From IMG/VR virus record IMGVR_UViG_3300049215_000077, positions 1 to 57,824 of that record: a stretch of DNA of 57,824 nt, one strand, 5' to 3'. Below are positions 1,758 to 39,786 of this stretch, piece by piece. A model generated the notes under the pieces. That model saw nothing but the letters and a program-made list of their open reading frames with translations. It searched no databases and was not told the DNA's origin. Each line of letters opens with the position of its first letter. Position 1 is the stretch's first letter. The position numbers and the translations under genes are program-made. This DNA is from a virus.

Positions 1758-2020
1758 GGTTCACGCTGTGCTCGGAAACGTGCGACTGTTTCCTCTTCGT
1801 CGATTTCCATCTGTTGTGCGAGCCTTCGGACCCGCAATTCGTCACGTTCCTGTTCGGCTTCACGCAATCTTCTCAGCAAGCCAAGCTGATCGCGATTTAT
1901 GAGACAGGCCGGTTCGGCGTTTGGCGCAGCACCGAAATGATCGCGCGCGTCGATCCAAGTATGGAATGTTTCATCGCAGTGGAAACAGGTCCACCCGTGC
2001 GCAGGCGGCGGAAAACTCAT
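1754..2020 (-). CDS. C2H2-like zinc-finger phage protein
   Basis: An 88-residue protein with CFHCDETFHTWIDARDHF near the N-terminus, which fits a Cys2-His2 zinc finger, followed by a charged coiled-coil-like segment (residues about 40-85, rich in E, R and L). No enzyme motif is visible. It is coupled by 4-base overlaps to the Lar-like gene and to the upstream gene. Function unknown; nucleic-acid binding is plausible. Confidence 0.78.
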   Translation of the reverse strand: MSFPPPAHGWTCFHCDETFHTWIDARDHFGAAPNAEPACLINRDQLGLLRRLREAEQERDELRVRRLAQQMEIDEEETVARFRAQREP

Positions 2021-2223
2021 ACCGCGACCTCGCTCTCGATTTCGCGGGCGATTTCGGTGAGACTGATCTTCCCATCACCGCGGCTGGCACACGGTTCGCC
2101 GGCCATTGCCATTGCGCAGTGCCGACGCATGATGGCGTAGCAGTCGCCATCTTCGGCGATCTGATAGCCGCGATCGCGGAGACTCTTTGCGAGCGCGTGC
2201 TCGATTTTCTGGCTAAGGCTCAC
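2017..2223 (-). CDS. Hypothetical protein (68 aa)
   Basis: I chose the GTG start at 2223 because it overlaps the preceding stop (GTGA), as elsewhere in this operon. The longer open frame reads into unrelated sequence. The product is a small acidic protein with Cys residues near the middle (CYAIMRRHC). I do not recognise a family. Confidence 0.65.
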   Translation of the reverse strand: MSLSQKIEHALAKSLRDRGYQIAEDGDCYAIMRRHCAMAMAGEPCASRGDGKISLTEIAREIESEVAV

Positions 2224-2855
2224 GCTGCGATCTCCTTCGGCATCGCGTCGATGTTGCAGCGATGCACGGTGAAGGTCATGGCTACCACTTCTGGGTTTGC
2301 ATCCCACGCGCCAGTGCCGTGAAGACGATTCCAAAGTTCCTGAAATGCTCCGCGCGCCGTGTTAAAGCCGCGACGTCCATTGGCGGTGTCCAATGCAGAT
2401 GTGCCGTAGTGGCAAGCCCCTGGGCCTCTCGCGAATGGATCACGTGAAAAATCCCAAAAGATACCTTCTGCCCGCGCGTCCGCTTCGCTGATCGCCTGCA
2501 GCCGCTCGACCTTCGTGGCGGTAACGATCAGACTGAGGCGAGAGAAAAAGCGCGGCATGTGGATTGACGGCCGCGACCTTGTCCAGTCAGACCCAGGAAG
2601 CCCGTCAGCCACATACCTAATCGGGCACTGTGTTCCCCACTCAGCCGGCGTAGTCTGCGACATTATCTTAGGCCCGCAGAAATTTTCGCGGACCCACATG
2701 CGATCGCCAATCTTCACCTGACGCCAAGGTGACGCATATGGCACGCCGCGCTTTGCCAGCCGCCACGTCATCGTCTTGCCGTTGCCGGGATATTCGACTT
2801 CTCGGATTAGTGCTTGCACCATCGGCGCGGAGAATATGATCGGGATATCCTTCAC
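2220..2855 (-). CDS. ASCH-like phage protein
   Basis: This 211-residue protein begins with a GTG start. The N-terminal pattern IIFSAPMVQALI, then TMTWR, and VKIGDRMWVRENFC followed by a late RLQAISEADARAEGI, fits the small RNA-binding-like ASCH/PUA fold proteins common in phages. Homologues often start with a short target-like loop and end with WNRLHG, present here near residue 180. The biochemical role is not established. Its start overlaps a micro-ORF by 3-4 bases. Confidence 0.8.
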   Translation of the reverse strand: MKDIPIIFSAPMVQALIREVEYPGNGKTMTWRLAKRGVPYASPWRQVKIGDRMWVRENFCGPKIMSQTTPAEWGTQCPIRYVADGLPGSDWTRSRPSIHMPRFFSRLSLIVTATKVERLQAISEADARAEGIFWDFSRDPFARGPGACHYGTSALDTANGRRGFNTARGAFQELWNRLHGTGAWDANPEVVAMTFTVHRCNIDAMPKEIAA

Positions 2856-2923
2856 GACGGATCTCCGAAGACGCGCCAGCCAGCTGCAGCGACCATGATC
2901 AACAGTGCGAGCTCTCCGATCAT
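2852..2923 (-). CDS. Micro-protein with one predicted membrane helix (23 aa)
   Basis: An ATG at 2923, 3 bases after the stop of the previous gene, opens 23 codons ending at 2852 with a GTGA overlap onto the next gene. Residues 1-16 (MIGELALLIMVAAAGW) form a single hydrophobic stretch. It fills the only gap in a run of coupled genes, which is why I believe it. No good ribosome-binding site is visible, so translation may depend on coupling. Confidence 0.5.
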   Translation of the reverse strand: MIGELALLIMVAAAGWRVFGDPS

Positions 2924-2926
2924 CGG

Positions 2927-3283
2927 TCAGTCTCGCAGGTGGCCGGGAAGCTCTGGCAATGGCGCGTTTTGCCCCGCCAGCTTGTGCGTGCAGTCAGAGG
3001 CGAACGCGATGACGCCGGTGCGGATCGTGTAGCGACATCGGCCACCGCCCCATCGCCATTTCGGATCGCGCGCGTTTCCCCATGCAAGGTTCTTCTCGAC
3101 TGAGAATGTCGGCTCACGCGTGTTGCCATCCCATTCCGTGACGGCGAAGACGTGCATGATCCCGCAACCGGGGCACCAATGCCCTATCCCGCCGACCGGC
3201 ACGCCGTGCGTGTGCCCGACGCGGCGAAGCTTCACGCCGATCTGCTCACGTGCATGCGATGTCGCTATAGCTGCAACCGTCAT
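2927..3283 (-). CDS. DUF6527-like phage protein
   Basis: The 118-residue product has HWCPGCGIMHVFAV, then WDGN and PTFSV, then a Cys in GRCRYTI, and ends with a DCTHKLAG segment. This ordered set (CPGC..H, WDGN, C.Y.I..G.I.F..D..H.LAG) matches the DUF6527 family of phage proteins, which probably bind one zinc ion. The start at 3283 overlaps the previous stop by 4 bases. Role unknown. Confidence 0.82.
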   Translation of the reverse strand: MTVAAIATSHAREQIGVKLRRVGHTHGVPVGGIGHWCPGCGIMHVFAVTEWDGNTREPTFSVEKNLAWGNARDPKWRWGGGRCRYTIRTGVIAFASDCTHKLAGQNAPLPELPGHLRD

Positions 3284-3471
3284 CGTGGCGGCTCCTTCCT
3301 CGTTTTCAACACGCCGTCCCAATCGACGCCCGCAGCCGATAGCGCCTCGCGTGCTTTCTGACGTGCGATCTCGGCAGCGAGCGGCCTGCCGTTGTCAGTA
3401 CGGCCGTGCGCGATTTCGCTAAGGGTGACTGTGATACGGCTATCGGCTTGCTGTTGTTGGGGCACGGCCAT
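3280..3471 (-). CDS. Hypothetical protein (63 aa)
   Basis: The start is placed at 3471 (MAVPQQQQ), one base after the previous stop, because the upstream part of the open frame overlaps that gene. The product is polar, with a helical RPLAAEIARQKAREALSAAG segment. No known motif. Coupled to its neighbours in the early operon. Confidence 0.68.
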   Translation of the reverse strand: MAVPQQQQADSRITVTLSEIAHGRTDNGRPLAAEIARQKAREALSAAGVDWDGVLKTRKEPPR

Positions 3472-3472
3472 G

Positions 3473-3688
3473 TCAGTGCACCGTAGACCGCGCGTGGTCA
3501 GCGACCATGCCGATGATGCCGACGTGAACGGCCATAGGTCCGGGATTGCCCGCGACAAAGCTATGAACGATGGTGTCGATGCGCTGGCGATCGCCACCGA
3601 TCGAGCGGTGGATGTAATCGACCAGTTCAGCGGCAGTGATGCCGTGATCGGTCATCGCCCTGCGCATCATGTCGTGAGAGGTTGTCAT
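3473..3688 (-). CDS. Hypothetical protein (71 aa)
   Basis: A small Met- and His-containing protein (MTTSHDMMRRAMTDHG) with alternating helical segments and no recognised motif. Its start overlaps the stop of the upstream zinc-finger gene by 4 bases, and its end is 1 base from the next start. Confidence 0.65.
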   Translation of the reverse strand: MTTSHDMMRRAMTDHGITAAELVDYIHRSIGGDRQRIDTIVHSFVAGNPGPMAVHVGIIGMVADHARSTVH

Positions 3689-3870
3689 CGGCGCCGCCGC
3701 TTGTTGCGGTCGGACTGGCGCTTCGCCGGTGGCGTGTATGTCATGCCATGACCGGCCGCGCAGTCAGCCGAGCAATAGCGAGGGAAACCCTCACCGCCGT
3801 CATCGTCGATGTACTCTCCGCAGCATTCGCAGAGAGTTCCATCGAGCATCATTTCTGCGATCTCACCCAT
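3685..3870 (-). CDS. Small zinc-finger protein
   Basis: Start set at 3870 (MGEIAEMMLDG), whose ATG overlaps the stop of the ParB-like gene by 1 base. The 61-residue product has CECCGEYI and YCSADCAAGHG, a four-Cys or more zinc-binding arrangement, and a basic C-terminal tail (RNKRRRR). This resembles small phage zinc-finger proteins whose function is not known. Confidence 0.72.
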   Translation of the reverse strand: MGEIAEMMLDGTLCECCGEYIDDDGGEGFPRYCSADCAAGHGMTYTPPAKRQSDRNKRRRR

Positions 3871-5447
3871 CACCGCTTTCCTTTCGCACCTGGCCCGCCG
3901 TAGTGCGACGTGCGGAGCTCGCGCGGAAGCCATTCGGTTTTTGTGGCCTCGGCAACGCACGTCTTGATCGCGTCGGCGGCCTTCTTCGGCACAGTGCCCT
4001 TGAAGCCCATGTCGGCGAGCGCCTTTTCGCGAAGGTGCTTGTTGACGCCAGCGAAGTAATCCTTCGCGTCGAACGCCTTGAGCAGCGCGGCGCTCATCAC
4101 CTTCTTGTCGATCGTGTCGCCGATCTTTCCGACTGCATCATCCAGGTCTGACGGCGTGTAACCGTAGCCGGAGTTCATCGTCGTCGATGGTGTGAGCATT
4201 TTCGCGCACAGCCCGGCCAACAGAGTCGACAGGTCATCCTTGTGCGGGTGCTCGGTCAGTGCCGCCTTGACGGCCTTGCAGCCTTGAGCTCGAAGCCGCC
4301 GCTTGAGCGCGTTGCTGACCGCGTTCTTGTTCGCCGGCGCCGCCTTCGCCTTCTCGACCTTCGTCTCTTGCGCCTTCTCGGCCGCCGCGCGCCCACGCGA
4401 CTTTTTGAAGCCAAGACCAACACAGATCTTCGGCCCGTGATCGACATAGACGAAACAGCCGCACGTCTTCTTTTCTTCGTCCGTGTACTTTTTCTTCTGC
4501 GGAAGCTGGTCAGTCATATAGCGGTTGTGGCCGTCATCGATCTCGGCCCACTTCCAGCCGTCTTCGCCGACCAGCCGTTTGCACTCCGCCTCCATCTTCT
4601 CTTGAACGAGGCGTTCGAGAATGTCGGGGTTGCCGATGACCTGTTCGTCTGCCTTGCGGTCAGTGAAAAGGTCTGTCGCGAACTTGCCACCCGCCGCCTC
4701 ATACGCCTCACGGCCGATGATCTTGAGAAGCCCACCCGAAAAGCTGTTCGTGGTGTCGATCTTGAGCTCTTGGCGGACCGTGTAAGCATTGGGCTGCGCA
4801 TGTCGCGGCAAGCCCTTCGTCACTTTGGCGAGCACCTGGTCTTGGCGAACGTGATCCGCGGCCAGCGTGAACACGCGTGCCACGTCTTCGCGGATTGTGC
4901 CCGATCGCCATGCAATGCGCACCCGCTCGGAGAGCGCACCGAGCGCCAGCGATTGCTCCACAATCTTGCGAGCCATTCCGTAGCGGGTGGCGATTTGATC
5001 GACGGTGAAGCCGTGGTTGTCTCGCAGATCGGCGAAGGCCTCGTAGCGATCGACGGCGTGCAGCGGTGCACGCTCGATGTTTTCGGCCAGCGACTTTGCG
5101 CGCGCCTCGGCAACCGAGAGACCGCCGAAGGCGAAGACCGGCACCACATAGTCTTCCGGTTTGATCTTCTGCTTTTTGGCGATCTCGTTCGCGAACTTGA
5201 GGCGACGGTTACCGGCTCCGACATAGAGGATGCCGCTGTTGTCCATATCGAAGGCGAGCAACGACTGGATCACGCCATCGGCCTCGATCGAGGCTTTGGT
5301 TTCGGTGTCGTCTTGCTGGCTCGCCGGCGACTTGCGCACGTTCAGCGATCCGAGCGGACAATCTTCACCTGGCCGCAGTCTCGACAACGCGACCATTTCA
5401 ATCGAGGCGACGCGCCCCGTCTTGGCATTCTCGGTCTTGGTCAACAT
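3870..5447 (-). CDS. ParB-like DNA-binding protein
   Basis: A 525-residue protein starting at 5447 with a good GGAGAG site. The N-terminal domain (residues about 15-130) has ParB/Srx features: L..LRPGED, an SI..DGVIQSLLAF stretch, and YVGAGNRRLKFA. It is followed by the conserved SLAENIERAPLHAVDRYEAF segment and a KorB-like helix-turn-helix (FTVDQIATRYGM). The long C-terminal half has basic segments and KAKAAPANKNAVSNAL. No ParA partner exists in the window, so plasmid-style partitioning is unlikely. Transcription or nucleoid control, or CTP-dependent DNA clamping, is possible. It is one of three ParB-type proteins in this phage. Confidence 0.9.
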   Translation of the reverse strand: MLTKTENAKTGRVASIEMVALSRLRPGEDCPLGSLNVRKSPASQQDDTETKASIEADGVIQSLLAFDMDNSGILYVGAGNRRLKFANEIAKKQKIKPEDYVVPVFAFGGLSVAEARAKSLAENIERAPLHAVDRYEAFADLRDNHGFTVDQIATRYGMARKIVEQSLALGALSERVRIAWRSGTIREDVARVFTLAADHVRQDQVLAKVTKGLPRHAQPNAYTVRQELKIDTTNSFSGGLLKIIGREAYEAAGGKFATDLFTDRKADEQVIGNPDILERLVQEKMEAECKRLVGEDGWKWAEIDDGHNRYMTDQLPQKKKYTDEEKKTCGCFVYVDHGPKICVGLGFKKSRGRAAAEKAQETKVEKAKAAPANKNAVSNALKRRLRAQGCKAVKAALTEHPHKDDLSTLLAGLCAKMLTPSTTMNSGYGYTPSDLDDAVGKIGDTIDKKVMSAALLKAFDAKDYFAGVNKHLREKALADMGFKGTVPKKAADAIKTCVAEATKTEWLPRELRTSHYGGPGAKGKR

Positions 5448-5785
5448 GATGCTCTCCGTTGCTGGATGCCTTTGAGTTTGAGCGCGTTGATGCCGCCGAC
5501 CGCATAGGCTTGCGACCAGCACTCGAACTCCTCGGCTGAAATGTTGTGCCGCTCACAGATCTCCTCGCGCGTGGCCTTGCCGGCAGCGACTTCATCGACA
5601 AGGCGAACCTTTGCTTGCGCGGTCCACGGGTGTTGAACCGGCGCGATGGATTGGCCGCGCCTCACGCGCTTGGCGAGCTCAAGGTCGCGCTCGCGTTGTC
5701 GGCGACACTCGCGGCTGCACGTCGCCCGTGGTCCGAGGCGACCGGACGCAAAAGGTTTGCCGCAAACGGGACATATCCGGCTCAT
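5441..5785 (-). CDS. Zinc finger fused to a SciP-like DUF1153 domain
   Basis: A 114-residue protein. Residues 5-30 form a zinc finger (CPVCGKPF ... CSRECRRQR). Residues about 52-110 match DUF1153, the domain of the alphaproteobacterial regulator SciP: a Trp, then LVDEVAAGKATREEICERH, ISAEEFECW, an INALKLKG segment and QQRR. In Caulobacter, SciP binds DNA and blocks CtrA-dependent activation. Host SciP proteins lack this zinc finger as far as I know. In context (GcrA and a DnaA-like protein in the same phage) it is likely a transcription or cell-cycle regulator; direct evidence is absent. Confidence 0.82.
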   Translation of the reverse strand: MSRICPVCGKPFASGRLGPRATCSRECRRQRERDLELAKRVRRGQSIAPVQHPWTAQAKVRLVDEVAAGKATREEICERHNISAEEFECWSQAYAVGGINALKLKGIQQRRASC

Positions 5786-6072
5786 GCTGCGGCCACCGCT
5801 TTCGCTACAGCTGGAGCAGATGGCGGAGTCGACGGTGACGGTGTTGTCGGCGAAGGTTCGGGATCGTGCGGCGGTTCGGGCTCTGGCGGCTTCGGCGCCG
5901 GATACCGCTGTTCGAGGATCGCGATCTTCAACGCGAATTCGTCGGCACCGAGCTCATAGGTGTGCACCACGTCTTTGCCGAGCGTGCCACCGGCCGGCAT
6001 ATCGTGCGGCCACTTTTCCGGCACCGGGCCTTTGAGGCCTTTCACCCACACGAAGCGTCCACCCGGCTTCAT
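5782..6072 (-). CDS. Hypothetical protein with proline-rich tail
   Basis: A 96-residue protein. The first 60 residues (KPGGRFVWVKGLKGPVPEKW ... HTYELGADEFALKIAILEQR) look folded. The rest is a Pro/Ser/Thr-rich low-complexity tail (PAPKPPEPEPPHDPEP). It overlaps its neighbours by 4 bases at each end. Function unknown. Confidence 0.75.
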   Translation of the reverse strand: MKPGGRFVWVKGLKGPVPEKWPHDMPAGGTLGKDVVHTYELGADEFALKIAILEQRYPAPKPPEPEPPHDPEPSPTTPSPSTPPSAPAVAKAVAAA

Positions 6073-6470
6073 GCTGCCTCACCTTCCGGCGCATCGACAT
6101 AAGACGCGAGCATGACCAAGCGAACTTTGACGCTATGCCCTGTCCGCTGTCGGACGAATTCACCGCTGATGATTTCGGCGATCTCTCGCGGGTTCTTGTT
6201 ATCGCGCCGCAATTCCAGGATGCGGAGGTCTGCAGCCTGCGAGTAATAAGCGACAGTGTAGCCGCGGCGCTGATAGGTCGTTTCGCGGTACACAATCTTC
6301 CGCTCGATGAGGCCATGCGTGAGCATGTACCAGTTGACCGTGCTGACCTTGCGATTGAGCCTCCGTGCTATTTTACCCGGTGTCGGATTCTTCATTGTTG
6401 AAGCAAGGCGCTCGATCTCGTCGCGCTCCGCGTCAGTCATCCGTCCGTGTTTGATGGCAGTGGCATTCAT
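6069..6470 (-). CDS. Helix-turn-helix phage regulator candidate
   Basis: A 133-residue basic protein. MTDAERDEIERLAS...PTPGKIARRLNRKVSTVNWYM (residues about 11-49) fits a resolvase/GcrA-like helix-turn-helix. Later RILELRRDNKNPREIAEII looks like a second one (residues about 83-101). Two tandem HTH units suggest a DNA-binding regulator. It sits just downstream of the ATPase gene with a 3-base gap. Confidence 0.75.
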   Translation of the reverse strand: MNATAIKHGRMTDAERDEIERLASTMKNPTPGKIARRLNRKVSTVNWYMLTHGLIERKIVYRETTYQRRGYTVAYYSQAADLRILELRRDNKNPREIAEIISGEFVRQRTGHSVKVRLVMLASYVDAPEGEAA

Positions 6471-6473
6471 TGA

Positions 6474-7712
6474 TCACGCCTCGACGATGTTGACCTTCGC
6501 GCCCGCCACCGCGAGATACGAACCGCCTTCCAGCGTCAGGAATCCGTCGCGCAGAAGCTCGGTGAGTACGCGGTCGATGTTGGCGTTGTTCACGTCGGCG
6601 CCGGTGCGCTTGAGCTCCGTGCGCGTGGCGCTGTTGGTCTTGCCGCCATCGTAGAAGCCTTCGGCGAGAAGCTTGGCGATGCGGCCCTTCGACGTGGTGC
6701 CGTCGATCTCGATGCGCTTCTTCTCGACTCGAACTTCGATCTCCGGCCGTGCGATACTGATGGCGGCAATCATGCCGGGATCGGCGAGCGCACGCCGCTT
6801 GATCTCGGCATAGATCGCATCCATCGAAGCGACAGTCGCGTGATCGGCCGCCATTGTCGGCGCCGGTCGCTCTATCGTCTTCGATACTGGTGGCGCCTCT
6901 TTGCCGTTCAGTCGGGCGGTCAGGTCGCGGACCTGCGACGACAATTCCGCAACGTGCTCCTCGAGCTCGGTGTTGCGCTGGCGGAGTGCAGTGGCTTCTT
7001 CGGGCGTCCTATCGACCCAAATGCGGTTGCCGATGCCGGAGCCTTTGCGTACCAGCGTGACCGCTGCGGACTTGACTGGCGATCCTTTGCCTTCCGGGAT
7101 GAACTCCCAAGCCTCCGGAATTACCACGACGGTGTTGCGCTCGCGCTCGTTCACCCAATCAAGCGCCGATTGCACGAACAGCATTTGCATCGGCGTCGAG
7201 AAGTCCGACACGTCCATGACGTTCACGCCGATCGCCAGATCGAGCGATGGTGCGAGTCGGGCGCGTGCAATGTCCGGCACGATCAATTCGAGATAGGCGT
7301 CAAGCTGGATCAGCGCGCCTTCTTTCTGACCGTGGGCTTTCTTCAAGCCGGTACGCACCGCGGCCTGGACGTCTGCCAGCGTCTTCGTCTTCCGGCAGAT
7401 CGGAATCAAAAACTGGCGCAGGTACTTGTTCTTCTCGCCGAGCGCCGCTTCGAGAATCGCGTCAACGAATTGCCAGTCGGCGCGATCGCGGAAATACGGC
7501 TGAATGCGCCGACCATCGGCGAACGAGCCTTCGCCGCGTTTGGTGACGAACGTGATTACCTGCGCGCCCGATCGCGTCGCCAGTGCTTCGAGCGTCGTGG
7601 TCTTGCCGCTCTCTTGCGTCTGCCCGGTCACGGCGAGATTGAGCAGCGGCACGGCGATCGGCGCGCCGGTGCCGAGCTCATAGCCAAGGTGAATGGTGCG
7701 CTTGTCAGTCAT
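6474..7712 (-). CDS. HerA/FtsK-like P-loop ATPase
   Basis: A 412-residue ATPase with Walker A TGQTQESGKTT near residue 28 and a Walker B-like VVVIPEAWEF near residue 195. A coiled coil (RQRNTELEEHVAELSSQV) and a C-terminal winged-helix-like region follow. Start 7712 overlaps the preceding stop by 4 bases. As I recall, related phage ATPases have a stretch of about 80 residues after IWVDSQD that completes the motor core. Here IWVD runs straight into RTPEEATAL, so an in-frame deletion is possible. Likely role: DNA translocation or processing in replication or recombination. Confidence 0.82.
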   Translation of the reverse strand: MTDKRTIHLGYELGTGAPIAVPLLNLAVTGQTQESGKTTTLEALATRSGAQVITFVTKRGEGSFADGRRIQPYFRDRADWQFVDAILEAALGEKNKYLRQFLIPICRKTKTLADVQAAVRTGLKKAHGQKEGALIQLDAYLELIVPDIARARLAPSLDLAIGVNVMDVSDFSTPMQMLFVQSALDWVNERERNTVVVIPEAWEFIPEGKGSPVKSAAVTLVRKGSGIGNRIWVDRTPEEATALRQRNTELEEHVAELSSQVRDLTARLNGKEAPPVSKTIERPAPTMAADHATVASMDAIYAEIKRRALADPGMIAAISIARPEIEVRVEKKRIEIDGTTSKGRIAKLLAEGFYDGGKTNSATRTELKRTGADVNNANIDRVLTELLRDGFLTLEGGSYLAVAGAKVNIVEA

Positions 7713-8065
7713 GGAGCGCACGCACTGCACAGGTCTTCTTCGGCCCAGGAGCATCCGCCTTCGCAGGCGTCGTACTCGGTGCAGCCGCACTTGCGGCAGA
7801 CACCGCCGATGCGCGACGGCACCACGTCGCCGAAAAGCGTTTCTGGAAAAGCGACCTTTACCGTGTTGAAAAGCGCGCCGGCCAAGGCCGCATCATTCGC
7901 CGCAGCCGCACGATGGATCACGTTGCTGCCGCCTTCATCGGCCTCGAACGCTTCCACCGCGAGAAACCCGGCAGAGTATTCGAGTGCCGCGGCGCCGATC
8001 GCGGCTTGCTGTTTCGGTGTGAGCGTCGCCCACTTCTCGATGCCGTCAAAGCGTTCGATGGTCAT
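7709..8065 (-). CDS. Hypothetical protein with C-terminal zinc-binding motif
   Basis: A 118-residue protein. The first 80 residues are helical and Ala-rich. The C-terminus has CRKCGCTEYDACEGGCSWAE ending in CSAC, a Cys cluster seen at the end of various phage proteins and probably a zinc site. Overlaps both neighbours by 4 bases. Function unknown. Confidence 0.78.
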   Translation of the reverse strand: MTIERFDGIEKWATLTPKQQAAIGAAALEYSAGFLAVEAFEADEGGSNVIHRAAAANDAALAGALFNTVKVAFPETLFGDVVPSRIGGVCRKCGCTEYDACEGGCSWAEEDLCSACAP

Positions 8066-8430
8066 TCGTCTTCTCCCGCGCCGTAGTCGTCGTGGTCATT
8101 TGCTGCTGGCGCGCTGTCGCCCTGCATCCGCTGGTCTTCGAGGCGGTACTGAACGGGGCGCACCGGCCGCGGGTCGGCTTGTCGCCGCGCCTGGCTCAAG
8201 GCGAGTTCGTCATCGAGCGGCGAGACCTGATAGAGCGACGGGCCGCCAGCAAAGAGCGTCGAGTAGCCGGCCGGTGCCGACAGCCTGTCTTCGTCGCCGC
8301 CGTTCCAAAACGGAACGTCGAGGCGCAGCATCTTCGTGCCGTACTGTTCAACCTCGCAGACTTTCGCGATCGTGCGCCGAAAGCCCATTTGCTCGACAAG
8401 CGCCCAACCCTCGTATGCCGCCGTTGTCAT
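8062..8430 (-). CDS. Conserved phage hypothetical protein
   Basis: A 122-residue protein with a short folded N-terminal part (YEGWALVEQMGFRRTIAKVC ... LRLDVPFW) and a polar, acidic C-terminal tail. Small proteins of this kind are common beside recombination genes in alphaproteobacterial phages. I recognise no activity. Coupled by 4-base overlaps. Confidence 0.72.
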   Translation of the reverse strand: MTTAAYEGWALVEQMGFRRTIAKVCEVEQYGTKMLRLDVPFWNGGDEDRLSAPAGYSTLFAGGPSLYQVSPLDDELALSQARRQADPRPVRPVQYRLEDQRMQGDSAPAANDHDDYGAGEDE

Positions 8431-8900
8431 TCCCCTTCCTCCTCAATGATCGCTGCGATCTTCGCTCCGAACTTTCGGCCTGCGAGCAAGACGCACGTGT
8501 GGTCGCGGTCGCCGAACGCCTGGCCAACTGCGGGCGTGCCGCAGCGGAGCAGCTGATAGGCAATTGCCATCCCGACGTGACGCGGCTCGACAATCCGATG
8601 GAGGCGGCTTGGCCCGGTAATTTCCGCGGGCGTGATTCCGTAGACGGCGGCGACCGCGCGGACGATCAACGTCAGCTTCTTCCAGCCGGGAGGAGTTGCA
8701 GCGATCAATTCGCGCGATGTGCGGATGCAGGCGGCGATGCGCTCGCGCTCGGTCAGCACCGTTATCGAAGGTGGTTCCGGCTCCACGGGCAGCGGCTCGA
8801 TCGGCGCGGGCCTCACCGGCACGAACTGCTTCCGCATCGGCCCGTGGAGCCGGAGACGTACAGCGGCATAATGCGCGCTGAGTTGTTGGGCGTATGTCAT
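8427..8900 (-). CDS. DnaA domain IV-like DNA-binding protein
   Basis: A 157-residue protein whose second half (residues about 80-150) resembles the C-terminal DNA-binding domain of DnaA: VAAVYGITPAEITGPSR, then a MAIAYQLLRC helix, then GQAFGDRDHTCVLLAGRKFG, which matches the DnaA signature (G.RDHT.V..A). There is no AAA+ ATPase domain. It could bind DnaA boxes on the phage or host chromosome without the ATP switch, as a competitor or a phage origin-binding protein. That function is inference. It lies beside the recombination genes. Confidence 0.85.
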   Translation of the reverse strand: MTYAQQLSAHYAAVRLRLHGPMRKQFVPVRPAPIEPLPVEPEPPSITVLTERERIAACIRTSRELIAATPPGWKKLTLIVRAVAAVYGITPAEITGPSRLHRIVEPRHVGMAIAYQLLRCGTPAVGQAFGDRDHTCVLLAGRKFGAKIAAIIEEEGE

Positions 8901-32463: not shown

Positions 32464-33198
32464 GTGCCATACAAGGATGCGGAGCGTCGGCGTGCATACC
32501 GGCGCTCCTACTACGCTCGGCCGCGCGTCAAGAAACGGATTCTCGCGAAACAGCGGGCCTATAGTCGCCGACCGGAAGTCAAGGCGCGTCGCGCAGCCCG
32601 TGCGCGTCTTTACCGGCAACGTCCTGACGTAAAGACGAAGCTGCGTGCAGCTACCCGTCGCTATCAGCGTACTGAAAGGGCGAAGGCGCGCCGTCGCAAA
32701 CTGAACCGGCGACCGCACGTCAAAGCCCGCAAGCGCGAATGGTGGCGGCAGTACCGGGCGCGCAATCGCGATCGTCTGAACGCCAACCGTCGGCGGCGCT
32801 ACAATCTGCCGGAGGTCAAACAACGCCGGCAGCAATACTTGGCGCGGCCAGAGATACGGGCGCGCCGCAGTGAGCTTCACCGCAAGTGGATGGCGAACCC
32901 GGAAAACCGGGCGTCCGTCAATGCGCAGCAAAAAGTGCGGCGTGCCCATCCGCGACACCGCGACATCCACGTGCAGATGAAGCGCCTCGACCTTCGAGTG
33001 TCGGGGGTGCTGGCGATCATCAGCGAAGTGCTGGCTGGTCGGCGGCACATCGACATCGCCGAAGACTGGCTTATCAGCCAGAACGATGTGGGCTTAATCG
33101 CGCGGATCATGGGCCTGCAGCGCCGCCGAAAGACGGCGCGATCTCGGCCGAAGCCGCGTCAAGAACTACCGTCTCACTGGTACGGACTGGTTGCATGA
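32464..33198 (+). CDS. Very basic repeat protein (PEV(K/R)AR-like units)
   Basis: 244 residues, about a third Arg/Lys. Seven or so imperfect units carry the core (R)PEVKARR, RPDVKTK, RPHVKARK, LPEVKQRR, RPEIRARR, NPENRAS, each followed by 8-10 residues with an aromatic (Y or W). A short unique C-terminal region with ISEVLAGRRHIDIAEDWLIS looks like an HTH. The unit is related to the ADPEVRAR repeat of the gene at 16564. Its position between decoration and portal genes is unusual; it may bind DNA or be a homing-type insertion. Confidence 0.8.
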   Translation: MPYKDAERRRAYRRSYYARPRVKKRILAKQRAYSRRPEVKARRAARARLYRQRPDVKTKLRAATRRYQRTERAKARRRKLNRRPHVKARKREWWRQYRARNRDRLNANRRRRYNLPEVKQRRQQYLARPEIRARRSELHRKWMANPENRASVNAQQKVRRAHPRHRDIHVQMKRLDLRVSGVLAIISEVLAGRRHIDIAEDWLISQNDVGLIARIMGLQRRRKTARSRPKPRQELPSHWYGLVA

Positions 33199-33213
33199 TC
33201 CTGGGTGCCCGAC

Positions 33214-35703
33214 ATGGCTGAACCAGTGCGCGGTGCGGGACAGCCGCAGTGGCCGCTGTCGCCGTACAACATTCAGGTCAGCTATAGCTCGAGCCAAGGA
33301 ATCACGCGCGGCACCGGTGCCGATTGGTTCGGTCCGCTCAATCCGCTCGCGCCGATCGCGCCTCCGGACGTCGCCGGCCGGCGCTTCGACTATCCGCCCG
33401 GGTACAACCTTGTCACTCGGCCGCGCGCATACGAGCCTGTCGGCTTCGCGGAGCTCCGCGGTTTCGCCGAGGCATACGACTTGCTGCGGATCGTCATCGA
33501 GACTCGCAAGAGCCAGATCATGGGCTCGCGCTGGGCGATCAATCCGCGTGACCCAAAGTATAAGCGCAAGAACTCGACGATTGCTCCTGAAATGCAGGCG
33601 CGGATCGACGCGCTGACGAAATTCTGGCGCAAGCCCGATGGCATCACGCCGTGGAAGACCTGGATTTACGGTGTGCTCGAAGACCTGTTCGTCATCGACG
33701 CCCCGACGCTGTATTGCCAGCGGACGCGCGGCGGCAAGTTACTCGCGCTCTGTCAGCTTGACGGCGCGACCATCAAGCGGGTCATCGACGATTGGGGCCG
33801 CACGCCGACGCCGTACAAAGATCAGACGGGTGCGAATGTGTTCCCGCCTGCCTACCAGCAAGTGCTCAAGGGCTTGCCAGCTACCAACTACTCGACCCGC
33901 GATATCATCTATCGGCCGCGCAACGTCCGGCCGCACAAGGTCTACGGCTACTCGCCGGTGCAACAGATCTTGCTCACGGTGCAGATCGCGCTACGTCGTC
34001 AGATGTGGCAACTAGACTACTACACCGAGGGCTCGATTCCTGACGCGCTGATCGGCGTGCCCAACACGTGGACGCCCGACCAGGTCAAGCAGTTCCAGGA
34101 ATATTGGGACACGGAATTCGCTGGTGATCTCGCGAAGCGCCGCCGCGCCAAGTTCGTGCCCGGCGACACTGCGGCCAAGGTCCACCAAACAAAAGAGCCG
34201 GAGCAAAAGAACGACTTCGACGAATGGCTCGCGCGCATCACCTGCTACGCATTTTCGGTCTCGCCGCAGTGGGCGACGAAGATGGTTGGGCGCGCTGAGG
34301 CGCAACAGCACTCCGAGAACGCGGAACAGGAAGGGCTTGAGCCGACCAAGGAGTGGATAGCCGAATTCGCCAATGCGATCATCGAGGACGAATTCAACTC
34401 GCCAGATCTGGAACTGACGTGGATCGAGCAAGACGAAACCGATCCCGGCAAGCAGAACGAGATCCTCGACAGCAAGGTCAAGTCTGGACGTCTCACCATC
34501 AACGAGGCGCGCGACAACGACGGCCTTGATCCTTTCTCCGATCCCGCTGCCAATAAGCCGATGGTGCTCACGCCGACCGGCTACGTGCCGATCGAGGCCA
34601 ACACGATCGAGGGCAAGCAGGCGAACATCGACGCGTTCGGTCTGCCGCCCACGCCCGGTCAGCCCGGCGAAGGTGGTGATTCCGAAGGCGGAGAAAACGG
34701 CGAGCAAGGTGGAAATAACGCTGGCGCCAAAGGGAAACCCGCTGGTGATTCCGCAGAGCAGGCAAAGAAAGCCCGGTACGATGCCGCGATTGCTTGTGTG
34801 CGTCTCAGATTGGGAACCGCCAAAACGCTTGATGAACAGGCAGACGCAACAGCGAGTCTCACCCGTATGATCCGCGGCGAGGAACCCATTCCGGGTTTCG
34901 ATGATCGCTTGAACGGCAGCATCCCGTTCGGCAAGCGTGCAGAACGCGGTCGGAGGTCCGCGCCTGTCCCTTTTGACCGGCCGCTTGTCCGCGGTCGGAT
35001 CAAGCTGATGGCGGCGGTTCTCGCCAAGACGTTCTCAAAGCTGGAGCCAAAAGTTATCGCGGCAGTGCGCGATGAGCTCGGCAAGGTCAGCAAAGACAAA
35101 AAGGGGAAAGCGAAGGCGCAGGCGCAGGCGATCGTCGATGATCTCGACTTCTCGTTGCTGGTCGATGCCACTGGCGATGTAGCCGATGATCTTTCATCGA
35201 TCACGACTGACAGCGGCCAGATGGCGCTCGCGCAGCTTGGCGTTGACGATCGGTCGGATCTTGTCGACCAGGTCAATGACCGCGCGGTCGCGATGGCCGA
35301 AAGCCAAGCGGCCACGATGGTCAGCGGCATCGATGAGCGCACGCGCAACATGCTTCGCGATCTCATCGCTGGCGGACTCGACAACAACATCGGTACCGAC
35401 GCAATCGCTGAGGCTATTTCTGATTCCGGGCTGTTCTCCGATGACCGCGCCGACTTGATCGCGCGCACGGAAATCGCGGATGCGAATAGTGCTGGCGCGC
35501 TCGCAGGGTACAAAGCGGCTCGCGACGATGCGGGTGTGAAGGTCAGGAAGGCATGGGGTCTTGGACCGAACCCGTGCGAGATTTGTCAGGAGAACGCGGA
35601 CGAAGGCGACATCGATCTTGACGATGAATTTCCGTCAGGTGACGATGCGCCTACTGCTCACCCTCGGTGTGAGTGCGATCTAGTGCCGGTGGTCGAGGAC
35701 TGA
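33214..35703 (+). CDS. Portal protein fused to a MuF-type head morphogenesis domain
   Basis: About 829 residues (ATG 33214; GTG 33205 possible). The first 450 or so are portal-like (IVIETRKSQIMGSRWAINP, DIIYRPRNVRPHKVYGYSPV). The last 200 contain the Mu gpF-like domain: ARTEIADANSAGALAGYKA, then NPCEICQENADEG, and the HPRCECDL ending. Fusion of portal and MuF in one chain is seen in some phages. It forms the packaging vertex and carries an internal head protein domain. Confidence 0.92.
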   Translation: MAEPVRGAGQPQWPLSPYNIQVSYSSSQGITRGTGADWFGPLNPLAPIAPPDVAGRRFDYPPGYNLVTRPRAYEPVGFAELRGFAEAYDLLRIVIETRKSQIMGSRWAINPRDPKYKRKNSTIAPEMQARIDALTKFWRKPDGITPWKTWIYGVLEDLFVIDAPTLYCQRTRGGKLLALCQLDGATIKRVIDDWGRTPTPYKDQTGANVFPPAYQQVLKGLPATNYSTRDIIYRPRNVRPHKVYGYSPVQQILLTVQIALRRQMWQLDYYTEGSIPDALIGVPNTWTPDQVKQFQEYWDTEFAGDLAKRRRAKFVPGDTAAKVHQTKEPEQKNDFDEWLARITCYAFSVSPQWATKMVGRAEAQQHSENAEQEGLEPTKEWIAEFANAIIEDEFNSPDLELTWIEQDETDPGKQNEILDSKVKSGRLTINEARDNDGLDPFSDPAANKPMVLTPTGYVPIEANTIEGKQANIDAFGLPPTPGQPGEGGDSEGGENGEQGGNNAGAKGKPAGDSAEQAKKARYDAAIACVRLRLGTAKTLDEQADATASLTRMIRGEEPIPGFDDRLNGSIPFGKRAERGRRSAPVPFDRPLVRGRIKLMAAVLAKTFSKLEPKVIAAVRDELGKVSKDKKGKAKAQAQAIVDDLDFSLLVDATGDVADDLSSITTDSGQMALAQLGVDDRSDLVDQVNDRAVAMAESQAATMVSGIDERTRNMLRDLIAGGLDNNIGTDAIAEAISDSGLFSDDRADLIARTEIADANSAGALAGYKAARDDAGVKVRKAWGLGPNPCEICQENADEGDIDLDDEFPSGDDAPTAHPRCECDLVPVVED

Positions 35704-35704
35704 C

Positions 35705-35920
35705 ATGCCATTCGTCGTCACCAAGACGCTGCCTGACATGGACGGTGCGCCGGCGATCGTCGGTACGTTTTCGTCGCCGGGACTGGCACGCAAAGCCTGC
35801 ATCGGCGCCGGCGTGTACATCATCGCCAACACCGAGCTCGATCGCGTCTACAAGAGCGGTACGCTTCTGGACTGCGAGCGCATTGTCGTCGTCGGCACGC
35901 GCACTGTCGGCACGAAGTGA
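35705..35920 (+). CDS. Small hypothetical protein (71 aa)
   Basis: ATG 35705 follows the portal stop by 1 base. A short beta-rich product (VVTKTLPDMDGAPAIVGTF, GVYIIANTELDRVYKSG). Such small proteins between portal and protease are common; function unknown. Confidence 0.7.
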   Translation: MPFVVTKTLPDMDGAPAIVGTFSSPGLARKACIGAGVYIIANTELDRVYKSGTLLDCERIVVVGTRTVGTK

Positions 35921-35964
35921 ACTGCGCGATTAATTAATTCCACGAAACACAACGCAGGCCGCCG

Positions 35965-36135
35965 ATGCGTGACAGCAGCACGCCACCCGGTGGTGCGATC
36001 AAGTCCACGTTCTCAGCGCCCGGATCCGCTGCCACCGGATTGCAGGGCTACGACCTTGAAGGTGCGCGACGCCGAGCAAAGCGACGGCGTTCCAAGAAAC
36101 CCGCTGCCGGCGATCCGGCGACGAAGGAGTCCGCA
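35965..36135 (+). other. Capsid-like leader peptide in frame ahead of the protease
   Basis: The frame is open from ATG 35965 into the protease. It encodes KSTFSAPGSAATGLQGYDLE, which matches KSTFSQPGSATSGLNYYDLE in the N-terminal part of the capsid protein at 38212. Ser, Gly, Leu and Glu use different codons in the two copies, so this is not a recent DNA duplication. A basic linker (RRRAKRRRSKK) follows. The AT-rich ATTAATTAAT lies just upstream at 35930. Confidence 0.65.
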
Positions 36136-38091
36136 ATGGACGAACTGAAGCTGTTCATCCCGATCACGAAAGTCGATGCTGCACAGCGTCTCGTCTACGG
36201 TGTGGCGACGGCCGAGAAGCCGGACGTGTCGGGCGAAGTCTGCGACTACGCATCGACAAAGCCGTACTATGAGAAGTGGTCGGGCGATATCGCCAAGGTC
36301 ACGGAAGGCAAGTCGTTCGGCAATCTTCGTGCGATGCACGGCAATGTCGCCGCGGGCAAGCTCACGTCGATCAACTTCAACGACGATGCCCGACAGATCG
36401 AAATCTGCGGCAAGGTCGTTGATGATGCCGAGTGGGCCAAGGTCGAGGAAGGCGTCTACACCGGCTTCTCGCAGGGCGGCAAATACATCAAGCGGTGGAA
36501 AGACGAAGCTGGACTGCAACGCTACACCGCGGAGCCGATCGAGGTATCGCTAGTCGATCTGCCGTGTTTGCCGGATGCCACGTTCTCGGTCATCAAGGCG
36601 GACGGTTCGACCGAGCTCCGCAAGTTCAAGCCCGCGGAGTCTGTCACGGTCAAGTTTGTCGCGGTCAGTCTCCCGTCGAACGGCGACATTGCCGTGCGCG
36701 CCACCGAGCTCGCGAAGGCGGCTGGCAACGAAAGCAAGTGGGCTGATTTCATCGGTGCCGCGACCACTGAGCTCATGAAGGCCGCGACACCGGCTGCGGC
36801 CGCGACTGCCGAGACGACGGCGGTTGCGATCCCGCACGGCGCCGTCGAAGCCGACGATGGTTCGGAGGAACAGGGCTGGCGGCACAAGATGCTGCCCGGC
36901 GAGTTCTTCAAGACCAAAGGTGAAATGCGCAAGCGTCTCATCGAGAAAGCGGCGGAGACTGCCGCCAAGACTCAGGCCGCGCCGGTAATGGACGCGCTGG
37001 CCGGCATCAAGGATTCGCTCACGAAGCGCGAAAGTGGCGGAGACGCCACTACCGCGCCAGCGGGCAAGACCGTCGTGAAGGTCGATCAACAGCCTGCCGG
37101 AGACGGCATGGCGAAGAAAGACTACAGCGACGATGAACGCAAGCAGGGCGCAAAAGAAGGCTGGGCCAAGAAAGACGGATCGTATCCGATCAAGACGGCG
37201 AAGGATGTTGCCAACGCTGTCAAGGATTGGATCCGCTCGAAGGGCTCGGCATCGGACAAGCGCCACATCATCAAGCGTGCGAAAGCAGTGTCTGGCGGTA
37301 CTGACGAACTCCCGCCTGACTGGTCAGGCAGCACCAAGGACAAGGACGCTAAGAAGCTCGCGCTCGCCGGAGACGGCGCGGCCGTGCAAAAGAATCTCTA
37401 CTTCGTGTCGAACCTTGTGGCGCTGCTGGCCTCCTTGGAGCAATTCGAGGAAGACTACGAAATGATCACGCGCTGGGGCGCGGCCGATCCCGAACGCAAC
37501 GAGCTCTGCACTCGGTTCGGAACCGTGCTTGTCGATTGTGCGGACCTGGTCGCCGATATTCTCGATCGAGCGATCGCAGGCATCACCGCTGAGGAACAGG
37601 GTGAAGCCGATGGTGCCATTCAGCGCGCGAGCATCCTCATCGATCTGCATAAGATCAACGGCGTCTACACGCTGGCGAAGGCCGGCGCCAAGCACGCCAA
37701 AGCCGACAAGGAGCGCATCGCCCAGGCGCACGATCTTCTGGTCGAGCTCGATCCCGATTGCTGTGATGCTGCCGAAGACGGCGACATGGGCGAGACGGAA
37801 AAGCTGAACAAGGTGCTGACTGCGGAACGGTCCGAGTTCAAGAAGGTGCTCGACAGCATTGCGGTGATCGTCACCGATGTTGCCGAGCGCGTCAAAAAGA
37901 TCGAGGACCAACCGCTGCCGATCGGCTCGACTTCGGTTCGTGTCGTCGACAAGTCGATCGACAGCTCGATTGCTGGCAATGCCGGCACCGTGCTTGAGCA
38001 ACCCGGTGCGCTTGAAGCACTGGCCGAAGCTGCCATCCGCAAGGCGCAGTCTCGGCCGATGTCGGCGCCACCCGGTTTCCACCGGCCTTAA
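36136..38091 (+). CDS. Prohead protease (XkdF-like) fused to scaffold/DUF6582 region
   Basis: 651 residues from ATG 36136, which has AAGGAG 6 bases upstream; translation from 35965 would add 57 residues. The N-terminal domain (VYGVATAEKPDVSGEVCDY, RAMHGNVAAGKL, GFSQGGKYIKRW, EVSLVDLPCLPDA) matches the XkdF-like phage protease, with a His in RAMH and Ser in EVSLVD. A DUF6582-like unit follows (DERKQGAKEGWAKKDGSYPI), and a long helical C-terminus (VLLASLEQF-like helices) fits a scaffold. Cleaves capsid and scaffold during maturation. Confidence 0.85.
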   Translation: MDELKLFIPITKVDAAQRLVYGVATAEKPDVSGEVCDYASTKPYYEKWSGDIAKVTEGKSFGNLRAMHGNVAAGKLTSINFNDDARQIEICGKVVDDAEWAKVEEGVYTGFSQGGKYIKRWKDEAGLQRYTAEPIEVSLVDLPCLPDATFSVIKADGSTELRKFKPAESVTVKFVAVSLPSNGDIAVRATELAKAAGNESKWADFIGAATTELMKAATPAAAATAETTAVAIPHGAVEADDGSEEQGWRHKMLPGEFFKTKGEMRKRLIEKAAETAAKTQAAPVMDALAGIKDSLTKRESGGDATTAPAGKTVVKVDQQPAGDGMAKKDYSDDERKQGAKEGWAKKDGSYPIKTAKDVANAVKDWIRSKGSASDKRHIIKRAKAVSGGTDELPPDWSGSTKDKDAKKLALAGDGAAVQKNLYFVSNLVALLASLEQFEEDYEMITRWGAADPERNELCTRFGTVLVDCADLVADILDRAIAGITAEEQGEADGAIQRASILIDLHKINGVYTLAKAGAKHAKADKERIAQAHDLLVELDPDCCDAAEDGDMGETEKLNKVLTAERSEFKKVLDSIAVIVTDVAERVKKIEDQPLPIGSTSVRVVDKSIDSSIAGNAGTVLEQPGALEALAEAAIRKAQSRPMSAPPGFHRP

Positions 38092-38211: not shown

Positions 38212-39786
38212 ATGTATCAACCCAACCTGCAGCATATTCTTGCGAAGTCTGCGCTTCCGCGGACCTCGCAGGAATACGAAGTCGCGCTGACAAGTGCGAC
38301 CAGCTTCCTCAAGGAAGTCGAGAAGGCGCACGCCAGTCCGTTGCCTGGCGACCCTCTCGCCAAGAGCACGTTCTCACAGCCTGGCTCCGCGACGTCCGGT
38401 CTGAATTACTACGACTTGGAGCTCGGTGCGAAGTTTCTGTATCCGGTGCTCACGCCGCTCCGCAACGAAATCCCGCGCGTGTCGGGTAAGGGCGGCATCC
38501 AGGCAAACTGGCGTGCGGTCACCGGCGTCAACACGTCCGGTCTTCGCATCGGTGTCTCTGGCGGCAACCGTGGCGGCGTGCAGGCCGTGTCCACTCAGGA
38601 CTACACCGCGGCCTACAAGGGCATCGGCATCGAGACCTCGGTTGACTTCGAGGCGCAGTACGCCGGCATGGGCTTTGACGACGTGAAGGCGATCGGCGCC
38701 AAGACCGGCCTCGAAGCCTGTATGCTCGGCGAAGAAACCCTGATCCTCGGCGGCAACACGTCGCTTGCGCTCGGCACCACGCCAACGCCATCGACAACGC
38801 CGGCCACGTCGGGCGGCACTTTGGCGGACGCCACTTACAGCGTGATTTGCGTCGCGCTCTCGCTGGACGGTGTGATCAACGGCAGCGTCACTGGCGGCAT
38901 CCAAGGTCAGATCACGCGGCTCAATGCCGACGCTTCGTCCGACAGCTTCGGTGGTGGTGCGGCGCGCAAGTCGGCGGCGGCATCCGCGGTTGTCTCTGGC
39001 GGCGGCGGTGCTGGCTCCATATCGGCAACCGTTGCCGCAGTGACCGGCGCTCTCGGCTACGCGTGGTTCTGGAGCACGCCGGCCGGCTCGGAAGTCCTCG
39101 GTGCGATCACGACCATCAACTCGGTGGTGATCACCGCGACTGCGGCCGGCACGCAGACTGCCGCGTCGCTCGGCACCGGCGACAACTCGACGAACGGCTT
39201 GGTCTTCGACGGGTTGCTCACCCAGGCGCTCAAGAGCGGGTCGAACTCCTACGTCAGCTATCTGCCAACCGGCACTGCCGGAACTGGCACCGTTCTCACG
39301 GCTGACAACTTCGGTGGTATCGTCCAAGTCGATACCGCGCTCAAGTCGATGTGGGACAACTACCGTCTCTCGCCCGACACCATGTGGGTCGGCTCGCAGG
39401 TCGCTCAGAATATCAGCACCAAAATTCTGGCGAACTCCAACACCGGCGCTCAGCGGTTCACCATCACCGTTGATCAAGACAAGATCGTCGGCGGCGTGAT
39501 GGCGCGCAGCTATCTCAACAAGTTCTCGATGGCCGGCGCGAAAGACATCGAGATCAGGATTCACCCGAACATGCCTGCGGGCACGATCCTGATGACCAGC
39601 CGCACGCTGCCGTATCCGCTGTCGAATGTCGGCAACGTGATGCAGATCCGCACCCGTCAAGACTATTACCAGATCGAGTGGCCGCCTCGCGCCCGCCGCT
39701 ACGAGACTGGCGTGTATGCGGACGAAGTTCTGCAGCACTACTTCCCGCCGTCCATGGCGGTGATCGCGAACATCGCGGCCGGCTAA
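38212..39786 (+). CDS. Major capsid protein
   Basis: 524 residues from ATG 38212. The N-terminal region (residues about 50-90: KSTFSQPGSATSGLNYYDLE, FLYPVLTPLRNEIPRVSGKG) is the capsid pattern common in alphaproteobacterial phages. The middle has Gly/Ala/Ser-rich beta segments that may be an inserted surface domain. The C-terminus (MQIRTRQDYYQIEWPP) fits the HK97-type core. Followed by a terminator-like hairpin, as expected for a strongly made protein. Confidence 0.9.
   Translation: MYQPNLQHILAKSALPRTSQEYEVALTSATSFLKEVEKAHASPLPGDPLAKSTFSQPGSATSGLNYYDLELGAKFLYPVLTPLRNEIPRVSGKGGIQANWRAVTGVNTSGLRIGVSGGNRGGVQAVSTQDYTAAYKGIGIETSVDFEAQYAGMGFDDVKAIGAKTGLEACMLGEETLILGGNTSLALGTTPTPSTTPATSGGTLADATYSVICVALSLDGVINGSVTGGIQGQITRLNADASSDSFGGGAARKSAAASAVVSGGGGAGSISATVAAVTGALGYAWFWSTPAGSEVLGAITTINSVVITATAAGTQTAASLGTGDNSTNGLVFDGLLTQALKSGSNSYVSYLPTGTAGTGTVLTADNFGGIVQVDTALKSMWDNYRLSPDTMWVGSQVAQNISTKILANSNTGAQRFTITVDQDKIVGGVMARSYLNKFSMAGAKDIEIRIHPNMPAGTILMTSRTLPYPLSNVGNVMQIRTRQDYYQIEWPPRARRYETGVYADEVLQHYFPPSMAVIANIAAG

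Follow-up and report, generated by a model that had tools for sequence, protein, structure and literature searches.

The rules by which proteins enter phage heads are known in few systems. In T4, according to the accessible text of PMC3012670, the CTS directs head-packaged counter-defence proteins into the prehead core. In P1, as the available portion of PMC12810830 describes, the counter-defence proteins DarA and Hdf are anchored to the inner capsid, and the N-terminus of DarA is cut by the prohead protease, adjoining the cut site of the capsid. Enzyme domains have also been found fused to head proteins; the parts of the reports available to us describe Nudix domains joined to portal, MuF or capsid-processing serine peptidase domains (PMC9503650) and 2H domains joined to MuF or portal (PMC5512222), both predicted to be packaged and injected. 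Family 1 encapsulins load cargo into HK97-fold shells by means of short terminal peptides (PMC8346489, accessible text).

Several published observations concern the capsid N-terminus, again as given in the accessible text of each source. The SPP1 scaffold binds the coat N-terminus (PMC6813328), and in P22 the gp8 residues R293 and K296 contact acidic residues of the gp5 N-arm (PMC9965877). HK97 is cleaved at K103/S104, and the N-arm of its Prohead II lies approximately where the scaffold domain of Prohead I lay (PMC10275583). Because scaffolds bind at the capsid N-terminus or N-arm, a peptide copying the arm could keep a protein attached to the inside of the shell. The accessible part of the open-access literature yielded no description of a capsid-arm-like tag on head proteins. 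Here we analysed a viral DNA stretch of 57,824 nucleotides (the window; IMG/VR record IMGVR_UViG_3300049215_000077), in which a short capsid-like leader is encoded in frame ahead of the head protease. We think it just probable that this leader is an N-terminal docking tag, which would mimic the capsid N-arm and hold the long form of the protease, together with any fused cargo, on the procapsid.

Results

Organization of the locus

The genes lie on the plus strand of the window in the order portal, 71-aa open reading frame (ORF), leader-opened long ORF and capsid gene. The portal protein (33205..35703; PF04860, 4.3e-16; PF04233, 8.3e-7) has a C-terminal Mu F-like domain, and the 71-aa ORF between portal and leader (35705..35920) gave no Pfam or PHROG match. 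By eye, this small ORF has a lookalike upstream in the related locus L105 (10544-10762). Just upstream of the portal, an ORF at 32464-33198 encodes an extremely Arg/Tyr-rich, repeat-like putative protein. The major capsid protein (38212..39786) was identified by phrog_13692 (2.4e-137), with a weak SU10_MCP match below the cut-off.

The frame of leader and protease runs uninterrupted from 35938 to 38088, with one ATG start codon at 35965 and another, in the same frame, at 36136. The 57 codons that precede the inner ATG, counted from the first one (35965..36135), form the leader, an open frame matched by our leader HMM; it comprises a capsid-like core, KSTFSAPGSAATGLQGYDLE (36001..36060), conserved in 17 phages, and a polybasic stretch, GARRRAKRRRSKKPAAGDPA (36061..36120), with a net charge of +8, and its last codons hold the AAGGAG ribosome site (36124..36129) of the inner start. 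The inner-start product (36136..38091) is a head protease with an XkdF/S78_2-like N-terminal part and a long scaffold-like C-terminal part, which presumably serves as scaffold. It was matched by phrog_21715 (1.8e-16) and by phrog_9427, head maturation protease (2.4e-7), and had no Pfam match. Domains homologous to it are present in 112 loci; when the fused proteins were scanned, only the one from L112 passed the cut-off of PF14550 (Peptidase_S78_2/XkdF; 25.8 vs 24 bits).

The leader core resembles the capsid protein

The leader core shares 15 of 20 residues with KSTFSQPGSATSGLNYYDLE, residues 51 to 70 of the capsid (38362..38421), and 41 of 60 bases; different codons are used at 8 of the 15 common residues. 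Leader and capsid agree at 15 residues in their best stretch of 20, and when the leader was shuffled 200 times this maximum was 6 to 10. Among 1222 ORFs of the window, the leader ORF was the sole non-self match to the capsid at E<0.4 (E 0.002), and when the leader was searched against all six frames of the window's record, nothing but the leader itself and the capsid came up (E 7e-6), with no third copy of the motif. The first-pass annotation, made by reading the letters and a list of ORFs, had described a capsid-like peptide in frame before the protease/scaffold, and the open frame and an identity well above the shuffle maximum bear this out. Chance similarity is ruled out by the shuffles and BLAST searches; that the motif is a coincidence or an out-of-frame artefact has practically no chance of being right, since we found nothing in its favour and the shuffles, the record search, the selection on the leader and its in-frame conservation in 13 protease and 2 scaffold fusions all oppose it. 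The base and codon differences likewise rule out a recent DNA duplication in the window. Elsewhere the identical leader and capsid residues seldom differ in codon (1/9 in L073, 1/10 in L131, 3/13 in L113 and 3/10 in L093), so that codon bias or later exchange may account for the similarity in these four phages, and a recent DNA duplication is possible there as well.

The AF2 model of the capsid (38 sequences, mean pLDDT 72.9) has helices at residues 4-13 and 19-41, followed by a low-confidence region at 44-99 that contains the motif, which would therefore sit at the start of a presumed N-arm. A sequence comparison with solved structures found none that resembled the capsid; the structures nearest to the model were the capsids of phages Pa223 and SU10 (best E 2.5e-3, none at or below 0.001). 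Since the N-arm is modelled at low confidence, the model does not single out a docking site. The motif begins where the helical N-terminus of the model ends, a position similar to that of K103/S104 in HK97 according to the accessible text of PMC10275583. This position favours the main rival to docking, namely that the head protease recognizes or cleaves the motif, which would mark the junction of scaffold and N-arm in the capsid and be cut in the leader too, setting free the leader or domains upstream of it; we consider this unlikely.

Selection on the leader and covariation with the capsid

In 136 pairwise comparisons of leaders, pS averaged 0.67 and pN 0.20, with pN below pS in 135 pairs. 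The leader core is thus under purifying selection and evolves as a protein, which agrees with the earlier proposal of a translated, conserved peptide and not a fresh DNA duplication. In 15 phages (L105 and L107, without capsid sequence, are omitted), the leaders agreed with the capsids of the same phages at 195 of 300 positions in total, more than with the capsids of other phages (mean of 179.5 in 20000 shuffles; p ~1e-4); when near relatives were collapsed to 10 lineages, p lay between 0.0005 and 0.007 over 12 choices. Leader and capsid therefore covary. For example, L003, L078 and L102 have TDG in leader and capsid alike, and in L128 the two copies share TTFT/TTGLQ/YNL. The covariation, drawn from few lineages (10), fits a docking tag and is also compatible with a shared protease site, because co-substrates of one protease would be expected to covary.

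The two copies differ at defined positions. Position 6 of the motif is A in the leaders (E in L122) and Q in the capsids of leader phages (16 of 16 distinct sequences), whereas capsids of leaderless phages have E in 54, Q in 33 and A in 1; the contrast between the two sets of capsids gives a Fisher p of 1e-6 with kinship ignored. Positions 15 and 16 are mostly Q and G/S in leaders, and mostly N/T and Y/F in capsids.

Distribution of the leader

Scans with the protease, the capsid, the leader, DNA patterns and the leader HMM found the leader in 17 distinct phages. The DNA-pattern scan matched 16 stretches, of which the leader HMM kept 8 with a leader and set aside 8 as chance or too weak. A search of the phage collection with the leader gave matches in two Brevundimonas phages alone, in each case to the capsid; the sampled host genomes returned the seeds alone (1/397 and 1/399), and in phage Polewnik the portal-protease gap is 57 bases, too short for a leader. 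Among 112 rows of unique protease domains with at least 900 bases upstream (of 127, with 15 left out), the leader is present in the locus in 17 and absent from 95; the near-identical L093 and L094 count as one phage among the 17 and as two rows (L118, L120) among the 112. The fraction 17/112 is not a prevalence because some loci were fetched by leader patterns.

On the protease tree of these rows, the leader requires 6 changes by a quick, unrooted method, with long branches at L103 and L131. Two main clades contain it, as do some deep lines, and 32 leaderless phages are nested within the clade of the window. This nesting suggests that the leader is old and was lost repeatedly or once, although an unrooted count does not prove the direction. 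The leader is dispensable in most relatives, given its absence from 95 of the 112 loci, and this counts against a docking role; yet the frame is open wherever the leader is present, so its absence elsewhere does not count against the coding reading. A functionless relic of an old, in-frame duplication of the capsid N-arm would explain the many leaderless relatives, and in L103 and L128 the similarity to the capsid seems by eye to extend past YDLE, suggesting an origin by duplication. Such a relic is nevertheless very improbable in view of strong purifying selection on a highly diverged synonymous background, the covariation with the own capsid, and the occurrence in at least two separate clades and deep lineages.

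Proteins that carry the leader

The consensus of the leader is KSTFxAPxSATSGLQGYDLEG, usually followed by Arg/Lys. Thirteen phages have the leader and the protease in one frame, i.e., the window, L003, L004, L078, L102, L097, L105, L111, L093, L113 (Bradyrhizobium sp. Tv2a-2, the same as L075), L122, L107 and L112 (a Rhodocyclaceae MAG). In L103 and L128 it stands on a scaffold-like protein lacking the protease, which is encoded separately in both loci; in L131, where the protease has a gene to itself, the leader stands on a 251-aa protein unrelated to it; and in L073 it forms a 53-aa ORF of its own in a frame other than that of the protease. The motif is internal, not N-terminal, in L111 and L105, which speaks against an N-terminal docking tag; L105 has a 159-aa stretch before the leader. 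No family match was found for this upstream domain of L105, the L131 protein or the L103 and L128 scaffolds. One conserved short peptide is therefore reused as a module, on proteases, Nudix- or Acb1-bearing proteases, scaffolds, the 251-aa protein, or alone, and the motif works apart from the protease. An exclusive tie between leader and protease is ruled out by L073, L103, L128 and L131.

A few other features of these loci were recorded. The stretch before the leader in L105 (10924-11400; 0 Pfam or PHROG matches) contains FHELAEWLMMNEGHTY. In L131, the portal (1860-5453) and the leader-bearing 251-aa protein (5989-6744) have a second peptide in common, KGFGVHGFWNGTEPHRGGGG, possibly another tag shared by head proteins. 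L103 encodes on the minus strand (3470-8353) a 1627-aa head-region protein in which HPRDENGRFTDKG and NPYRDEDGKFTSKD are similar motifs. On the N-terminal side of the protease, Cys-rich segments occur in the leader-bearing L112 (~6050-6200) as well as in the leaderless L020-type phages and L218; the segment of L017/L018/L020 is at ~4749-4990, and that of L020 had no Pfam match.

These carriers bear on whether the motif is a protease site. A lysine precedes [ST]TF in many leaders and capsids, and a cut at the motif in L111 and L105 would free the upstream domain, both as a protease site would have it. However, the leaders of L097, L102, L112 and L128 begin at a Met directly before [ST]TF, which leaves nothing upstream to remove. 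Moreover, most of the 20 positions are conserved and not one end alone, although the residues downstream differ between leader and capsid, and in L073, L103, L128 and L131 the tag stands on proteins that are not proteases. Of the three functions suggested in the first-pass annotation, anchoring of scaffold to capsid agrees best with the data and a cleavage or recognition tag is possible, while nothing specific speaks for a protease decoy.

In most cases the leader core is followed by a polybasic stretch, with a charge of +2 to +12 across the 17 leaders, whereas the charge after the capsid copy is +2 to +4 in the 15 phages with capsid sequence. In L111 (~8680-8790), the basic tail contains a local tandem duplication (YDLEGEGARRRK / YGLEGEGARRRK). 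The tail raises the further reading that leader and tail together are an internal peptide contacting DNA or the portal, a minor capsid-like component for which the capsid similarity would set only the place. The stand-alone 53-aa form of L073 would suit such a peptide, and P1 DarA and Hdf touch both shell and DNA within the head (PMC12810830, available portion). The tail is weakly basic in L112 (+3), L113 (+3) and L128 (+2), however, and most leader copies are fused to large proteins, so we regard this reading as improbable.

Two translation starts

In the window, the Shine-Dalgarno site of the inner start is strong (-8.3 kcal/mol) and that of the leader start weak (-2.6 kcal/mol). All 15 fused ORFs (13 protease, 2 scaffold) have a site at the inner start, at -4.9 to -9.1 kcal/mol, compared with a mean of -2.7 kcal/mol at the 157 remaining in-frame ATGs of these ORFs (Mann-Whitney p 2e-9); among the latter, 8.3% attain -5.9. 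Leader-start sites vary widely and are strong in L078 (-8.4) and L103 (-7.2), so the weakness seen in the window is not a general property of leader starts. Since the protease keeps a strong ribosome site of its own, nested products with and without the leader are likely, as had been predicted for the window, and the site is kept throughout the fused ORFs.

Nudix and Acb1 domains in the leader frame

In six phages the leader's own open frame includes a Nudix domain and/or a domain of the anti-CBASS nuclease Acb1. The order is leader, Nudix, Acb1, protease in L112, L093/L094 and L122; leader, Nudix, protease in L113 and L107; and Acb1, leader, protease in L111, so that several enzymatic domains are joined in one head-gene chain (in L111 with Acb1, in L107 and L113 with Nudix). 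PF23474 (Acb1) scored 115-127 bits in L111, L112, L093, L094 and L122, vs a cut-off of 27 (<=2.7e-33), and PF00293 (Nudix) 1.7e-17 or better wherever it is present in leader fusions. By eye, Acb1 of L093, L122 and L111 has two HxT motifs, which we take to be catalytic; the second one of L112 reads NVT.

Nudix or Acb1 is fused in 7 of 17 leader rows and in 0 of 95 leaderless rows (Fisher p 5e-7, rising to 4e-6 when the near-identical pair is counted once; kinship is ignored, and most of the fusions fall in one clade). The N-terminal extensions of the leaderless rows are all shorter than 130 aa (longest 125), leaving no room for either domain. The window's record gave no Nudix match and, in a search without positive control, no Acb1 match. 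Cargo delivery is therefore not the general role of the leader, and counter-defence cargo as such a role is unsupported for the window.

Discussion

From the sequence comparisons and the published arm contacts, we may propose how a docking tag would work. The weak upstream start would yield a smaller amount of the long form, made of leader, polybasic linker and protease/scaffold, to which some relatives would add Nudix and/or Acb1, while the strong inner start would yield the protease/scaffold in its usual form. As the procapsid assembles, the leader may occupy, or adjoin, the inner-surface site used by the capsid N-arms, and the docked leader would bring the long form and its fused cargo into the head. 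Later the protease would cleave the long form, and the tagged piece would stay in the head, with its basic tail free to contact DNA. In this scheme we infer binding of the leader to the shell, incorporation, cleavage and cargo delivery alike.

A broader form of the proposal is modular head loading, in which the copy of the capsid N-arm, instead of some unrelated signal, would act as an address label; fused proteins (protease/scaffold, Nudix, Acb1 or a further protein) would be built into the shell lattice and could be delivered with the DNA, and coevolution would keep label and shell in register. We put this forward tentatively and hold it to be rather doubtful in its full extent. If true, a tag copied from the capsid would be a direct and testable rule for head entry. 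New head cargo could then be sought by sequence, among it enzymes that are predicted to inactivate CBASS as they arrive. The tag would, moreover, be a defined peptide for the loading of HK97-type shells and could serve as a natural probe of the N-arm docking site.

The leader would work like a capsid-targeting tag; we compared it with the named tag families by description and assign it to none of them. In Family 1 encapsulins, as described in the accessible text, the loading peptides are mostly C-terminal, follow another consensus and are bound by the N-terminal helix of shells lacking an extended N-arm. For P1 DarA and Hdf, the available portion of PMC12810830 does not report a capsid-mimicking sequence, unlike the leader. 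As in HK97 (PMC10275583, accessible text), the motif lies, in the capsid model, at the junction of a helical N-terminus and the presumed N-arm, where HK97 is cut; unlike HK97, the tip of the arm is found here on other proteins as well.

The enzyme fusions resemble the polyvalent or head-packaged conflict proteins (Iyer, Aravind), as far as the accessible descriptions go, in that enzyme domains are fused to head proteins in the leader's relatives, and fusions of Nudix to peptidase and of 2H to MuF/portal are already published in the available text of PMC9503650 and PMC5512222. Unlike polyvalent proteins, the leader also occurs without any such enzyme, e.g., in the window, and a capsid-arm-like tag is absent from the accessible part of their published descriptions. 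Like the CTS of T4 internal proteins, the leader is a short conserved peptide on otherwise diverse proteins. By description in the accessible text, the CTS targets the scaffolding core and is not said to be copied from the capsid protein, whereas the leader resembles the N-arm of the capsid itself and usually stands on the protease/scaffold.
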